Shown here in pieces: positions 33,525 to 42,054 of a stretch of DNA of 64,000 nucleotides. The notes below the pieces were generated by a model. That model worked only from the letters and a program-made list of their open reading frames with translations. It made no database searches and was not told the origin of the DNA. Made by a program: the position numbers and the translations under genes. The stretch is from Roseovarius aestuarii (GTDB taxonomy: Bacteria; Pseudomonadota; Alphaproteobacteria; Rhodobacterales; Rhodobacteraceae): the NCBI GenBank assembly GCA_027214255.1, contig JAPWHL010000006.1, positions 62,001 to 126,000 on the forward strand. Reading direction: 5' to 3'. Position 1 is the first letter of the stretch. Every line of letters begins with the position of its first letter.

Positions 33525-33601
33525 TGGTAGGCCCGGCAGGACTTGAACCCGCAACCAAAGCGTTATGAGCGCTCTGCTCTAACCAGTTGAGCTACAGGCC
33601 C
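33525..33601 (-). tRNA. tRNA-Ile2 (anticodon CAU)
   Basis: A 77-base cloverleaf on the minus strand: acceptor GGGCCTG with CGGGCCT, D-arm GCTC-AACTGGTTA-GAGC, anticodon stem GAGCG with CGCTT and loop CTCATAA, T-arm GCGGG-TTCAAGT-CCTGC, and encoded CCA (33525-33527). The CAU anticodon with this body matches the isoleucine tRNA that TilS modifies to lysidine for AUA codons, rather than elongator tRNA-Met. It diverges from purM. Confidence 0.9.
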
Positions 33602-37943: not shown

Positions 37944-38591
37944 TCAGGATGACAAGGTTTCCAGCGTTGTGGCCAGATCGCCGTAACCGGTAAAACGATA
38001 TTCGTAGTCCAGCCCAAGTCGCCTGGCGCAGTCTTCGGCGCGGGCGCGCAGGGCAGGGTTGTCTGTTTGGGCCTGATAGACCAGCTTGGTATAGTTTCCA
38101 AAAATCATATCACGCAGTTGGGGATGGCGATCCAGCCCCATCGGTTTCCAGACGAAAGCGTCAAACTGTTTCACTAGAAAATCAGTGAGGTAGAAGGCCG
38201 TGATTTCATCATCGAGTTCCTTGAACGCTTCGTTGCCTTCAAAGAATGAGTAACAGTGCGGCCCCGCGACCATCTGCACGCCCAACTCGCGACATTTGGC
38301 CTGTAACAATCCGCCCGTGCCGCAATCTGCGTAGACGATAAAAATCTGGTCGTAAGCATCGCGATGTTCTTTGACGGCTTTCTCGACCTCTTCGGTTATC
38401 TTGTCGGGATAGAGATGCAATTTCGCCGGAAGGCAGGTAAGCGTCATATGGGACCAGCCATTGAGGCGGATCAGGGCTAAAATTTCACGCGCCAGCGCGC
38501 CGCAAGCGATCAGGAGAATGCGCCCTGGTTTCGCCGGGTCGGGGGCAAGCCCTTGTTCGGTTAGGATGTCATCGGGGGGCAAGTCAGTCAT
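37944..38591 (-). CDS. DUF1638 domain protein
   Basis: A 215-residue cytoplasmic protein of the DUF1638 family. Conserved-looking parts are ILLIACGALAREILALI (25-41), HLYPDKITEEVEKA, the YADCGTGG motif (about 89-96), and HCYSFFEG. Several Cys and His residues (CG, DCGTGG, HCY) could bind a metal or cofactor. My recollection is that this family co-occurs with corrinoid methyltransferase genes; here it sits two genes downstream of a corrinoid protein on the same strand, which fits. GAGG precedes the ATG. Its activity is unknown. Confidence 0.85.
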   Translation of the reverse strand: MTDLPPDDILTEQGLAPDPAKPGRILLIACGALAREILALIRLNGWSHMTLTCLPAKLHLYPDKITEEVEKAVKEHRDAYDQIFIVYADCGTGGLLQAKCRELGVQMVAGPHCYSFFEGNEAFKELDDEITAFYLTDFLVKQFDAFVWKPMGLDRHPQLRDMIFGNYTKLVYQAQTDNPALRARAEDCARRLGLDYEYRFTGYGDLATTLETLSS

Positions 38592-38733
38592 TTGGGCCTC
38601 GGGCCGGATGGGTTGTGGGGCTAGTTTATGTTGACCGTGCCCGTGTGGCGATGCACAAACGCGGCAGGTTGGGTTGAATTACGCCATGTAGCGGCATGAG
38701 ATTGGAGCAAAGCCTGCGACCTTTTGCGATTGA

Positions 38734-38898
38734 TCACCGTCGCAGGCCCGGCCAAAGCAATAGCGAACACAGCAATCCAACAGGGATCAATGCGGCCCAG
38801 ATTGGTGGGGGGGGGGGCATTGTTGCAATCCCCCAAATCGTTGCGCCAGCGGCGGCAATGACACAGATTAGTAATGTGGCGAATGTCCGTTTTGGCAT
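38734..38898 (-). CDS. 54-residue two-helix membrane protein with a C11 tract
   Basis: A short frame with two membrane helices: MPKRTFATLLICVIAAAGAT at the start and AALIPVGLLCSLLLW near the end, joined by five consecutive prolines. The prolines are encoded across 11 consecutive C residues (plus strand G11 at 38807-38817). GGAGGGG lies 5 bases before the ATG at 38896-38898, a strong site that argues for translation. It follows the corrinoid gene on the same strand, behind a terminator, and precedes DUF1638. Loss or gain in the tract would change the second helix. The family is unknown to me. Confidence 0.7.
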   Translation of the reverse strand: MPKRTFATLLICVIAAAGATIWGIATMPPPPPIWAALIPVGLLCSLLLWPGLRR

Positions 38899-38944
38899 AT
38901 CGGCCCCTCCGTTGCCTCAGATATAGGCATGATTGGGGTATTAA

Positions 38945-38975
38945 AAAACCCTGCCTCAGTCAGGGGCAGGGTTTT
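38945..38975 (-). terminator. Terminator of the corrinoid protein gene
   Basis: AAAACCCTGCC (38945-38955) pairs with GGCAGGGTTTT (38965-38975) around a nine-base loop. On the minus strand the stem runs into TTTTTTAAT, a classic factor-independent terminator 27 bases after the stop. Confidence 0.88.
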
Positions 38976-39001
38976 GGGATCATGACATGATCGGGAAAGT
39001 A

Positions 39002-39706
39002 TTAGCCGGTTGCACCTTGGTTGTGCTTGCGGCCGACCCATTCCTTGGCAGTTTCCACGGCAACGGCCGCATCACGGCAATAGGCATCGGCCCCGATCGC
39101 TTTGCCGAATTCTTCGTTCAGGGGGGCGCCGCCGACCAGAACGATGTAATCGTCGCGAATGCCCTGTTCGACCATCGTGTCGATGACGACCTTCATATAG
39201 GGCATCGTGGTGGTTAGCAGGGCCGACATGCCCAGAATATCAGGCTCTTCTGCCTCAAGTGCCGCCAAGTACCCCTCGACCGGGTTGTTGATGCCCAGAT
39301 CGACGACCTCGAATCCTGCGCCTTCCATCATCATGCCGACAAGGTTCTTGCCGATGTCGTGAATGTCGCCCTTGACCGTGCCGATGACCATTTTGCCAAC
39401 GCGAGGAGCACCGGTTTCGGCCAGAAGTGGCTTGAGGATGAACATGCCGCCCTTCATGGCGTTAGCTGCCAGAAGTACCTCGGGGACGAACAGGATGCCG
39501 TCGCGGAAATCCTTGCCGACGATTGTCATGCCACCAACCAACGCCTTGGTCAGAATGTCATAAGGCGCCCAGTCGCGGCTGAGCAGGATGTTTACGCCCT
39601 CTTCGATCTCTTCCTTGAGGCCATCGTACAGGTCGTCAAACATCTGTTGAACCAGTTCGTCGTCGTCCAGTTCCGACAGGATGATTTCGTCTTCTTCGTC
39701 TGACAT
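39002..39706 (-). CDS. Corrinoid (B12-binding) methyltransferase protein
   Basis: A 234-residue cobalamin carrier of the MtbC/MttC type. Residues about 10-98 form the helical cap domain (VPEVLLAANAMKGGMFILKP), and about 103-225 the B12-binding Rossmann domain with DIHDIG (Asp114, His116, Gly119), whose histidine ligates cobalt, then SALLTTTM and VGGAPLN. Such proteins shuttle methyl groups between a substrate methyltransferase and a folate or thiol acceptor. AGGGA precedes the ATG at 39706. bmt lies upstream on the same strand beyond an opposite-strand radical SAM gene, suggesting a role in betaine-derived methyl transfer. Confidence 0.93.
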   Translation of the reverse strand: MSDEEDEIILSELDDDELVQQMFDDLYDGLKEEIEEGVNILLSRDWAPYDILTKALVGGMTIVGKDFRDGILFVPEVLLAANAMKGGMFILKPLLAETGAPRVGKMVIGTVKGDIHDIGKNLVGMMMEGAGFEVVDLGINNPVEGYLAALEAEEPDILGMSALLTTTMPYMKVVIDTMVEQGIRDDYIVLVGGAPLNEEFGKAIGADAYCRDAAVAVETAKEWVGRKHNQGATG

Positions 39707-39939
39707 GAATGCAATCCCTGTAGTTGCGGCACCATGGAGGGGCCTAGTGTTGCTAGAGTCCCGTTTGGGCAATTTGGCGCAAACGCACTGTCCAAATTAC
39801 GACACTGGCCGCGTCGCTACCGACGTATAGCGCGGTTTTGAATTGAAAACCTCGACAAATGACGATGCCGTGATGGAAAAATGGGCATGTAGATCATGAG
39901 GTGCTTGCTTATGTTCTCTTTTTGTTCCATATTGATGGA

Positions 39940-41025
39940 ATGAGCTATCATGCATCATTCCCTTTAAGTCAGCGCCATCCCGGCCGCGGGGTGGGCAGCA
40001 ACCATACGGGACGGTATGAAGCACATGAGCGGCTGTATCAGCCCGACGGGTGGGAGGCCCCGGACGAGGGTGCGGTTTTGCGGACGCAAACCACGCTGGA
40101 GGTGCCGCGTCGCGTGATCAGCTATAACCGCTCGCCCGATTTGCCATTTGATCGTTCCATCAATCCGTATCGCGGGTGCGAGCATGGTTGTGTCTATTGT
40201 TTTGCGCGCCCGACACATGCCTGGCTGGGGCTGTCGGCAGGGCTGGATTTTGAAACGCGATTGGTTGCACGCCCCGAAGCGCCAGCGCGTCTGCGGGAAG
40301 AATTGCGCCACCGCGCCTATACGCCTCGCACGATTGCAATCGGGACGAACACCGATCCGTACCAGCCTATTGAGAAAGAGCATCGGATCACGCGCCGATT
40401 ACTAAAAACCCTGCGCGAATTTCAACATCCTGTCGCCGTCGTGACCAAGGGCACGTTGATCGAACGTGACATCGATATCCTGGCCGATATGGCCCGGGAT
40501 CGTCTGGTGCGGGTTGGTGTTTCGATCACCACGTTGGACCCGCAGTTGTCGCGCCGCCTAGAGCCGCGTGCGCCCAGCCCAGCACGTCGGTTGCAGATCA
40601 TTCGCGCGCTCAGCGATGCCGGGATTGACGTGCGGATTATGACCTCGCCTTTGATTCCGGGCCTGACCGATCATGAGCTGGAAGGTCTGTTGGAGGCCGG
40701 GCGCGACGCGGGCGCGATTGCGGCCAGTTGGATCATGCTGCGCCTGCCGCAGGAAGTATCTGGATTGTTCAAGGAATGGCTGGCCACGCATTACCCGGAC
40801 CGGGCTGGCCGTGTGATGGGCCTGTTGCGCGATATGCATGGTGGTCAGGAATACGATGCGGCGTGGGGGCGTCGCATGCGCGGGCAGGGGCCTTACGCCG
40901 AGATGATTGCTCAGCGGTTTGCGGTGGCGGTCAAGCGATTGGGATTCGCCGCCCGGCTGCCCGACCTGCGCACAGATTTGTTTCGCAAACCTGCCGAGGT
41001 CGGGGATCAGCTGACATTGTTCTGA
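39940..41025 (+). CDS. PA0069-type radical SAM protein
   Basis: A 361-residue radical SAM protein with the 4Fe-4S motif in CEHGCVYC (CxxxCxxC) about residues 80-87. The N-terminal GRGVGSNHTGRYE and the segment NPYRGCEHGCVYCFARPTH mark the PA0069 family, related to spore-photoproduct-lyase-like Rv2578c proteins; the reaction is unknown. The ATG at 39940 has only a weak site, and inverted repeats (39925-39940 and 39937-39961) surround it. GTG at 39901 is an alternative. It lies between bmt and the corrinoid gene but on the opposite strand. Confidence 0.88.
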   Translation: MSYHASFPLSQRHPGRGVGSNHTGRYEAHERLYQPDGWEAPDEGAVLRTQTTLEVPRRVISYNRSPDLPFDRSINPYRGCEHGCVYCFARPTHAWLGLSAGLDFETRLVARPEAPARLREELRHRAYTPRTIAIGTNTDPYQPIEKEHRITRRLLKTLREFQHPVAVVTKGTLIERDIDILADMARDRLVRVGVSITTLDPQLSRRLEPRAPSPARRLQIIRALSDAGIDVRIMTSPLIPGLTDHELEGLLEAGRDAGAIAASWIMLRLPQEVSGLFKEWLATHYPDRAGRVMGLLRDMHGGQEYDAAWGRRMRGQGPYAEMIAQRFAVAVKRLGFAARLPDLRTDLFRKPAEVGDQLTLF

Positions 41026-41043
41026 CTGCGGCCAAGTGTGGCC

Positions 41044-42054
41044 TTAGCCGCCACGGCGACGTGTGCGGCGGGGCTGTGGGGTGTCGTCGCCAGTGCCGTC
41101 TGCGGTTGATGAGAATGGCCCCAACGCGTCAACAATCTGATCCAGAGTGGGGCGCGGTCCCCGCTCGCGGCTTTCGAGTGCAGCGCGCATATGGCTAAGA
41201 TGTTCAGGCATCGTGCCACAGCACCCACCGATGATTGTTGCACCTGCATCACGTGCAAGGCAGGCGTAGTCGGCCATCAATTCGGGCGTACCGTCGTAAT
41301 GGATGTGACCTTCGACGAATTTGGGGATGCCTGCGTTGCCTTTGGCTACGATGGGCCGCCCGGTGCCCTGTGCGGCAAACCCCAGAACTGTGCGCATCAG
41401 GTCGGACGCACCAACACCGCAATTGGCGCCGTAGGCGAGTGGCGGGTTTGAGAGGGTTTCCACCATATCCGCCATCGCAGAAGAAGTAACACCCATCATG
41501 GTGCGACCGGCTGTGTCAAAGCTCATCGTGCCGACCCATGGCATGTCCACCAGCGAAAAGGCCTCGGCGGCGGCTTTGTATTCTTCTGGGGCCGAGATTG
41601 TCTCGAGCCACAGCACGTCCGCGCCGCCTTCTTTTAGGCCCTCGGCCTGTTCGTGAAAGATTTCGACGGCCAATTCGTGAGTGAGAGCACCCATCGGAGC
41701 CATGATTTCGCCGGTCGGACCGACCGAACCGGCAACGATCACGTCGCGATCCTGACGGTCGGCCACGTCGCGGCCCAGTTCCGCCGCGATACGTGACAAT
41801 TCACGCGCGCGTTTTTGAGCGCCGTGCAATTTCAGTCGCGCGGCGTTGCCTCCGAACGAGTTGGTCAGAAACAGATCGCTGCCTGCATCCACTGCCATGC
41901 GATAGAGTTTGGTGATCCGGTCGGGGTGCTTGTCATTCCAGAACTCAGGCGGGTCGCCTGATTCCAGTCCCATGTTAAACAGGTTGGTGCCCGTGGCCCC
42001 GTCGGCCAGAATCCAGTCGCGCTGCGACATCATGCGGGAAAGTGCGTTGCTCAT
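41044..42054 (-). CDS. bmt: Betaine-homocysteine S-methyltransferase
   Basis: A 336-residue zinc-dependent homocysteine methyltransferase. The fold opens DWILADGATGTNLFNMGLES; zinc-thiolate ligands are Cys212 (YGANCGVG) and Cys278/Cys279 (IGGCCGT). Bmt in roseobacters transfers a methyl from glycine betaine to homocysteine, giving methionine and dimethylglycine. The last 20 residues are basic (RRTRRRGG) and probably disordered. AAGGA precedes the ATG at 42054. Two genes downstream on the same strand is the corrinoid protein, and the DMGDH-like genes at 55-62 kb could use the product. Other homocysteine methyltransferases are the alternative. Confidence 0.87.
   Translation of the reverse strand: MSNALSRMMSQRDWILADGATGTNLFNMGLESGDPPEFWNDKHPDRITKLYRMAVDAGSDLFLTNSFGGNAARLKLHGAQKRARELSRIAAELGRDVADRQDRDVIVAGSVGPTGEIMAPMGALTHELAVEIFHEQAEGLKEGGADVLWLETISAPEEYKAAAEAFSLVDMPWVGTMSFDTAGRTMMGVTSSAMADMVETLSNPPLAYGANCGVGASDLMRTVLGFAAQGTGRPIVAKGNAGIPKFVEGHIHYDGTPELMADYACLARDAGATIIGGCCGTMPEHLSHMRAALESRERGPRPTLDQIVDALGPFSSTADGTGDDTPQPRRTRRRGG

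Follow-up and report, generated by a model that had tools for sequence, protein, structure and literature searches.

The closest described counterparts of the locus treated here come from Phaeobacter inhibens and Ruegeria pomeroyi. In P. inhibens, a Bmt-type protein, a B12 protein and a distantly encoded pterin protein together form a methionine synthase, and three of the five methionine genes lie at one locus, with the pterin protein and a RamA-like protein encoded elsewhere (Price 2018, PMC5764234). According to the accessible text of that paper, methionine rescues mutants of five genes, those for Bmt, the B12 and pterin proteins, RamA and a DUF1638 protein, and a radical SAM gene of the locus is fitness-neutral. 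In R. pomeroyi, MtgC is common to methionine synthesis and glycine betaine demethylation, the parts being named MtgB, MtgC, MtgD and MtgE; mtgC and mtgD mutants are methionine auxotrophs that fail to use glycine betaine for growth also when methionine is supplied, and RamA and DUF1638 are more abundant on N-osmolytes (Mausz 2025, PMC12478193). DUF1638 was one member of the set for which Price 2018 made no specific proposal, beyond suggesting a role in B12 reactivation and reporting a match between DUF1638 and RamA over 158 alphaproteobacterial genomes (PMC5764234), and the 2025 paper, as far as its text was accessible, just lists it with RamA (PMC12478193). Here we analyse a locus of this kind in a stretch of 64,000 nucleotides from Roseovarius aestuarii (contig JAPWHL010000006.1, positions 62,001 to 126,000; hereafter the window). 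The locus is a further instance of the published enzyme set and thereby already known, and we rest no claim of novelty on it; taken together, we consider it likely that this known locus includes, in DUF1638, a metal-centred partner of the corrinoid protein. The features of the locus, in window coordinates, are as follows.

41044-42054, minus strand: bmt (mtgE), 336 amino acids, predicted homocysteine-binding methyltransferase module of the split methionine synthase (Pfam S-methyl_trans, 2.8e-59)
39901-41025, plus strand: radical SAM gene of the PA0069 family, neighbour between bmt and mtgC (Radical_SAM, 1.6e-23)
39002-39706, minus strand: mtgC (mtbC, cbp), 234 amino acids, predicted cobalamin-binding carrier (Pfam B12-binding 3.3e-25, B12-binding_2 1.6e-16)
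38945-38975, minus strand: terminator-like hairpin with a T run, immediately 3' of mtgC (-18.6 kcal/mol)
38734-38898, minus strand: two-helix membrane protein, 54 amino acids, accessory, from a small family in the mtgC-DUF1638 gap
37944-38591, minus strand: DUF1638 protein, 215 amino acids, proposed metal-centred corrinoid-protein partner acting with RamA (PF07796, 8.3e-34)

The DUF1638 protein scored 117.2 bits against PF07796, over the gathering cut-off of 27. The mtgE product exceeded the cut-off of NCBIfam PRK07534, betaine-homocysteine methyltransferase (BHMT), with 597.7 against 338 bits, a name that reflects annotation; among solved chains its nearest relatives are of the MetH type (Thermotoga maritima, 2.7e-38), with BHMT reaching only 1e-11, and its GANC and GGCC cysteines align with those of MetH. 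The mtgC product is nearest to the solved chain 1y80 (5.8e-52) and contains DIHDIG, which we take to be the DxHxxG motif. It stayed under the cut-offs of the anaerobe MtgC families NF047995 (165.8 against 310 bits) and NF047996 (194.2 against 370 bits), in agreement with the report that Roseobacter MtgC is distinct (Mausz 2025, PMC12478193). The four large genes are the same as PGA1_c13370, c13360, c13350 and c13340 of P. inhibens (PMC5764234), where the order is likewise DUF1638, B12 protein, radical SAM gene and homocysteine methyltransferase, equally with no PF02965 protein according to the accessible sources; the window differs by the tiny membrane gene between DUF1638 and mtgC. R. pomeroyi has homologues of MtgC, MtgD, MtgE, RamA and DUF1638 (SPO2162), several MttB-type genes and a MetF gene adjoining mtgD, but its mtgE (SPO1884) lies far from mtgC (SPO2160), whereas the two window genes are about 1.3 kb apart.

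The remaining partners were found elsewhere in the genome assembly of the window (G000, estimated 100% complete, 121 contigs). RamA is present in one copy of 679 amino acids with RACo domains. MtgD is encoded at L011:1207-2262 (PF00809, 3.1e-27; NF005719, methyltetrahydrofolate:corrinoid methyltransferase, 404 bits, cut-off 259). Its neighbour is a MetF-like gene, related to the solved MetF 7xg9 at 1.7e-46, which matches no Pfam family and gives NCBIfam MetF matches that are weak and far under cut-off. MttB-type (PF06253) genes amount to seven full-length copies over cut-off and one fragment. A second small homocysteine methyltransferase exists, both PF02574 proteins being of single-domain size, and the MetH activation domain PF02965 gave no match in this genome, which has no MetH. 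MetH performs the same chemistry and has regions matched by the MtgE, MtgD and MtgC modules, but is one chain with PF02965; here the modules are separate proteins, and RamA and DUF1638 stand in place of PF02965. The genome contains the separate PF02574 module, a B12 protein with cap and binding domains, a pterin methyltransferase, RamA and DUF1638, as a split methionine synthase does, and also PF06253 methyltransferases of the type that an MtgBCD betaine demethylase uses. From results in relatives, transferred through homology and gene content, the locus very probably supplies the mtgE, mtgC and DUF1638 components of the split, B12-dependent methionine synthase of Rhodobacteraceae, an enzyme set that also demethylates glycine betaine. 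A further candidate for MtgD, L010, was rejected as a dihydropteroate synthase. Flanking the mtgD region on its far side, L011:13-798 appears by eye to be the end of a B12-dependent ribonucleotide reductase; L008 is an MttB-family remnant of 55 positions with one stop, and at L002:5-4355 an MttB-family gene lies between genes for an aldehyde dehydrogenase and an FAD-dependent oxidoreductase, perhaps another methylated-amine pathway.

A first-pass annotation, made from the sequence alone, had placed bmt, a B12 protein, a two-helix open reading frame and DUF1638 on one strand, and a radical SAM gene on the opposite strand between bmt and the B12 protein; all five genes are where it put them, with a Pfam family for each but the two-helix open reading frame. 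It had seen neither a dedicated substrate methyltransferase nor a reactivase in the window; indeed neither RamA nor an MttB-type methyltransferase turned up on the window stretch (contig C88), both lying on other contigs. Its suggestion of a methyl-transfer module is borne out by a gene order matching the published P. inhibens synthase, and both partners it had offered for the B12 protein are real in relatives: Bmt in P. inhibens (PMC5764234), and enzymes encoded elsewhere in R. pomeroyi, where the MtgB-type enzymes are distant (PMC12478193). The betaine growth experiment it had called for exists in published form, with an outcome opposite to the one it had named as refuting: the R. pomeroyi mtgC mutant showed neither growth nor betaine consumption even with methionine (PMC12478193). 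Its statement that DUF1638 has no known function still stands for the mechanism; it no longer does for the biology, given the methionine need of the mutants and the reactivation role proposed in 2018 (PMC5764234). The neighbourhood survey it had asked for is given next.

The neighbourhood was scanned in the best 80 of 581 confirmed relatives, which cover the near family only and are nearly all Rhodobacteraceae by title, with Roseovarius as the source of the nearest loci. The linkage of DUF1638 with the B12 protein is kept, with mtgC immediately 5' of DUF1638 and in the same orientation in 76 loci. Two of the four exceptions (L112, L125) have less than 0.7 kb of upstream sequence; the other two (L099, L110), both from Roseinatronobacter, carry DUF1638 without mtgC upstream, although 3.7 and 8 kb are available. 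Where 4.5 kb or more of sequence precedes mtgC (67 loci), mtgE was found within 4.5 kb of mtgC on the same strand in 48 loci, and 55 have a radical SAM gene that runs the other way; this gene sits between mtgE and mtgC in 39 loci, and mtgE occurs without it in 9. Locus L119 is titled as an Exiguobacterium profundum metagenome-assembled genome, with genes that match Rhodobacteraceae (mtgC 85%, DUF1638 71%), and is probably mislabelled.

The distribution of DUF1638, RamA, MttB and the MetH activation domain was compared over a single sample of 240 class genomes, in which they occur in 43, 55, 51 and 127 genomes, respectively. DUF1638 coincides with RamA in 42/43 genomes (RamA alone in 13) and with MttB in 42/43 (MttB alone in 9), the latter extending the DUF1638-RamA match of Price 2018. 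The MetH activation domain accompanies DUF1638 in 19/43 genomes and is no predictor (p 0.24). Because of these figures, DUF1638 tracks the MtgC-RamA system and not the absence of MetH. As to physical linkage, 23 of 44 DUF1638 genes are at most 10 kb from RamA and 29 of 44 on the same contig. A survey of the phylum found DUF1638 in 44 of 299 genomes, and the control genome of Methanosarcina acetivorans also gave a match.

Over this wider range, DUF1638 falls into three clades: A, the window type; B, of about 200 amino acids; and C, with the domain at the N-terminal end of a larger protein. Each of the 10 clade B loci encodes, in this order, RamA, a corrinoid protein, a URO-D-family protein and DUF1638, followed by a PAS/GAF protein, which is a full hybrid kinase in L163 and has only PAS or GAF domains by Pfam in L161 and L162. 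The clade B operons are possibly a corrinoid-based signalling system; in L161 two further genes follow, one for an NMT1/THI5-like binding protein and one for a hybrid kinase. When 398 genomes were searched with the clade C alignment, the fused type turned up in 12 of them, all at E <=1.8e-47, and the weaker matches belong to clade B. Ten of the 12 clade C proteins have histidine kinase domains by Pfam, and the other two (L159, L160) end at contig edges:

Clade C with HisKA and HATPase: L155, L156, L157, L158, L215, L217, L218, L219
Clade C with HATPase only: L154, L216

The PF07796 cut-off is passed by L154, L155, L156, L157, L160 and L216, and by L159 in the genome search; L158 reaches 26.1 bits as a protein and 28.9, over the cut-off, in the genome search, and L215 (26.1) and L217 (19.3) remain under it. 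L218 and L219 gave no PF07796 match at E 0.01 and were included through alignment A3 (2.5e-50 and 1.8e-47) together with their four cysteines; they are the most divergent fused forms, keep all four cysteines and have perhaps changed function. A corrinoid protein and a URO-D protein lie directly upstream in 9 of the 11 clade C loci whose upstream side is covered, and receivers or further kinases usually follow downstream.

The corrinoid proteins examined outside the window (8 from clade B, 5 from clade C) keep D-x-H-x-x-G in 13/13 cases. H-x-C, which we take to be the zinc motif of the thiol methyltransferases MtaA and MtbA, is absent from 14/15 URO-D proteins of clades B and C; the sole instance (C_L193) is at residue 64, away from the late cysteines. 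Because of this absence, the URO-D proteins may demethylate a substrate instead of methylating a thiol. RamA was found in 11/11 tested genomes with stand-alone DUF1638 and in 0/5 tested genomes with only the fused form, three of these five being 95-99% complete. Compared with the RamA/RACo activases (PF14574), stand-alone DUF1638 co-occurs with them in the 42/43 class genomes given above and in 10/10 clade B genomes, but DUF1638 has no Pfam ATPase or ferredoxin domain, and its fused form is present in genomes that gave no RamA match. Since clade C kinases carry the domain next to a corrinoid protein in such genomes, DUF1638 does not seem to be part of RamA chemistry alone, and since the corrinoid protein, not RamA, is the common partner across the three clades, DUF1638 probably acts on the corrinoid protein.

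For residue conservation, 14 clade A sequences (of 126), 10 of clade B and 7 of clade C were aligned (31 in total), to which 5 further clade C sequences were added later (36). Mean identities among the 31 are 21% (A-B), 15% (A-C) and 17% (B-C), and only Cys30, Cys90 and Cys113 (window numbering) are invariant, in 31 and then in 36/36 sequences. A fourth position is His59 in 24/24 stand-alone proteins (A and B) and Cys58 in 12/12 kinase-type proteins; the five later clade C sequences, used as a test, all keep the four cysteines. Within clade A, Cys30, His59, Cys90 and Cys113 are kept in 126/126 stretches, including the window copy (L014). Alignment A2 left out 10 of the 80 loci, namely six redundant Ruegeria loci and L112, L120, L122 and L125, the last with a stop codon. 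The codons in the window are:

38502-38504, minus strand: Cys30, unchanged in 36/36 sequences
38415-38417, minus strand: His59, clade C having Cys58 at the adjacent position
38322-38324, minus strand: Cys90, unchanged in 36/36 sequences
38253-38255, minus strand: Cys113, unchanged in 36/36 sequences

Three fixed cysteines with a fourth place switching between His and Cys have the look of a metal or iron-sulfur (Fe-S) site, and judged from the sequences such a site is somewhat more probable than its absence. In an AlphaFold2 model built with 71 sequences (predicted local distance difference test 88, predicted template-modelling score 0.79), Cys30 ends strand 1, His59 and Cys90 come immediately after strands 2 and 3, respectively, and Cys113 belongs to a less confidently modelled loop, so that the residues lie at or after C-terminal strand ends. 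By sequence, a search for solved relatives gave three matches up to E 10, all above 0.3. A nitrogenase-like fold (PF00148) was considered; nitrogenase-like proteins hold clusters with cysteines at strand ends. VIA-align gave Z 7.0 with 9d9u (84 residues, 2.4 Å) and 6.5 with DPOR, which is in the chance range, and profile comparison with 19 PF00148 proteins gave a probability of 1%; we gave the resemblance no weight as evidence. The folds of glutamate racemase, arylmalonate decarboxylase, sugar-binding proteins and succinyl-CoA synthetase all stayed under Z 8, the level of a common arrangement, and we claim no fold family for DUF1638.

We picture the system as follows, the steps of MtgC, MtgD, MtgE, the MttB-type proteins and RamA having been shown in relatives and being very probable here. 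MtgC would carry the cobalamin; MtgD, encoded elsewhere, would shuttle methyl groups between methyltetrahydrofolate and MtgC, and MtgE (Bmt) would hand them from MtgC to homocysteine, with MttB-type proteins, also elsewhere, loading MtgC from betaine and probably from other methylated compounds. After oxidation of the cobalt to Co(II), RamA would reduce it at the expense of ATP. DUF1638, as a metal or Fe-S protein with a Cys30/His59/Cys90/Cys113 site, would act on the corrinoid protein itself and aid RamA in bringing MtgC to Co(I), as an electron relay or as a binder of the Co(II) form; in clade C it would report the cobalt state to the kinase. Gene content, conservation, co-occurrence and the fusions are direct observations, and the methionine need of mutants and the dual role of MtgC were demonstrated by others in relatives; the metal, the geometry of its site, the contact with MtgC, the electron relay or docking and the sensing role are the parts of this scheme that we infer.

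Several observations weigh against this picture. The fused proteins L218 and L219 (genomes G272 and G327, of one genus), which Pfam does not recognise, have no corrinoid or URO-D protein beside them; of the five genomes without a RamA match, two have a completeness of no more than 65 and 71%, and the fused-form genomes G250, G272 and G327 were left out of the RamA test. The fourth ligand of clade C sits at an adjacent, not the same, position; that the four residues would meet in one site follows from the order of strands in the model; and the fold search with that model gave no weighty match (best Foldseek E 0.016, best Z 7.7). RamA occurs without DUF1638 in 13 of the 240 class genomes, 8 of which, several incomplete, also have MttB, and DUF1638 occurs without RamA in G127 (74% complete) and without MttB in G125. 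RamM of Methanolobus vulcani alone, with no DUF1638, partly reduced its MtgC in vitro (PMC6855144, accessible part), and purified P. inhibens Bmt makes methionine from betaine or dimethylsulfoniopropionate (DMSP) in vitro (PMC12366255, accessible part), which speaks against the simplest form of the split-synthase model. The literature searched contains no DUF1638 knockout, metal analysis or binding test.

The last-named enzyme experiment bears on an alternative for the locus as a whole, in which Bmt alone would be a betaine-homocysteine methyltransferase independent of MtgC and the B12 protein would serve only other reactions. The NCBIfam name, assigned well above cut-off, favours this, as does the fact that the purified enzyme required neither tetrahydrofolate nor cobalamin (PMC12366255). 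In P. inhibens, however, fitness profiles agree between bmt and the genes for the B12 and pterin proteins, and mutants in all three need methionine (PMC5764234), the mtgC and mtgD mutants of R. pomeroyi share this auxotrophy, and according to Mausz 2025 such Bmt homologues are without the betaine-binding residues of human BHMT (PMC12478193). As the window Bmt is also much nearer to MetH modules than to BHMT (2.7e-38 against 1e-11), we regard this alternative as unlikely; direct betaine-homocysteine activity may be an extra activity of Bmt. An essential part for the tiny membrane protein, as an anchor of DUF1638 or MtgC or a requirement of either, would agree with its presence in 35 of 76 mtgC-DUF1638 gaps and nowhere else in those loci, but its family has no member in 23/23 gaps under 130 bp, 6/36 gaps of 130-450 bp and 12/17 longer ones, which makes the idea highly improbable.

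Other accounts concern DUF1638 itself. As an Fe-S protein it might simply be the electron donor of RamA, a view favoured by the near-identical distributions of the two (42/43), by RamA in 10/10 clade B operons and by the three invariant cysteines plus histidine. The kinase-fused form, though, has retained both the site and an adjacent corrinoid protein in five genomes that gave no RamA match. Clade B RamA proteins have Pfam Fer2, and the N-terminal stretch of RamA in this genome looks 2Fe-2S-like by eye, although Pfam does not report it; we find this account rather doubtful. DUF1638 could also hold zinc, with one cysteine accepting methyl from the corrinoid protein, either as a sensor or to clear dead methylcobalamin, comparable to Ada. 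A Cys3-His or Cys4 set adjoins a methyl-corrinoid protein and the kinase fusions would turn methylation into a signal, but the neighbouring URO-D proteins lack the thiol-methyltransferase H-x-C presumed above (14/15), and we judge this very unlikely. Making or repairing the corrinoid rather than reactivating it was considered by Price 2018; in P. inhibens, though, B12 synthesis genes are essential and DUF1638 is not, methionine cures the DUF1638 mutants (PMC5764234), and kinase fusions are unlike a biosynthetic enzyme, so this role has a very slim chance of being correct. We retain a reading in which DUF1638 acts, with its putative metal centre, on the corrinoid protein.

The first-pass annotation had also counted the tiny membrane protein among the parts of its module, with the radical SAM gene nested between them. 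Its core holds for bmt, the B12 protein and DUF1638; for the two others, a place in the core is not supported. A member of the tiny family was found in the mtgC-DUF1638 gap of none of 23 loci with gaps under 130 bp, of 30/36 with 130-450 bp and of 5/17 with longer gaps; the resulting total of 35 is not an independent count, as 30 of the 31 sequences of the profile came from the same loci. The sole match outside those gaps in the 80 loci is just 5' of DUF1638 in L125. Members typically begin with M-P-L, mismatches per codon position (0.53/0.42/0.65) follow a coding pattern, and the window copy has no Pfam or NCBIfam match; the gene is real yet dispensable. The radical SAM protein scored 499 bits against NF033668 (cut-off 360); with 9 loci having mtgE and mtgC without it in between, and a fitness-neutral homologue in P. 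inhibens (PMC5764234), the gene is probably not part of the pathway.

The hairpin 3' of mtgC (-18.6 kcal/mol) is far more stable than its shuffles (-7.7, standard deviation 2.2; z -4.9), and because of this strong structure DUF1638 might not just ride on the mtgC transcript at this locus; a simple terminator scan of the whole region gave no excess over shuffles (5 against 4.9). A riboswitch 5' of bmt or mtgC was looked for, and the sole gathering-level Rfam match in the window was a tRNA at 33528-33601. The genes around the locus are housekeeping genes: rnd, sufE-like, ATPase zeta and purC-like (sufE and purC assigned by eye).

In our literature search, outside which most subscription papers lay, DUF1638 was met only in the P. 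inhibens and R. pomeroyi work and in a proteome table, with no description of a metal site, and no corrinoid-protein sensor kinase of the DUF1638 type was found; the only sensor was of a different type, from dichloromethane degraders. Their mec cassette likewise has URO-D-superfamily methyltransferases near a two-component sensor, but that sensor is reported to have a PocR domain, and the accessible text mentions no DUF1638 (PMC9768040). We tentatively propose, as a possibility, that DUF1638 is a reader of corrinoid proteins with a Cys3-His or Cys4 metal centre, and that clades B and C represent an undescribed two-component system of Pseudomonadota, in which a URO-D methyltransferase would methylate a dedicated corrinoid protein from a signal compound, DUF1638 would read the methylation or oxidation of the cobalt and the kinase, fused to it or encoded beside it, would relay it, the window DUF1638 being the enzymatic sister. 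The near-unvarying cysteine set and the kinase fusions make the role of DUF1638 testable. If the kinase clade does read the corrinoid state, a mode of sensing not found in the literature searched, then bacteria would sense methylated compounds by performing the methyl transfer.

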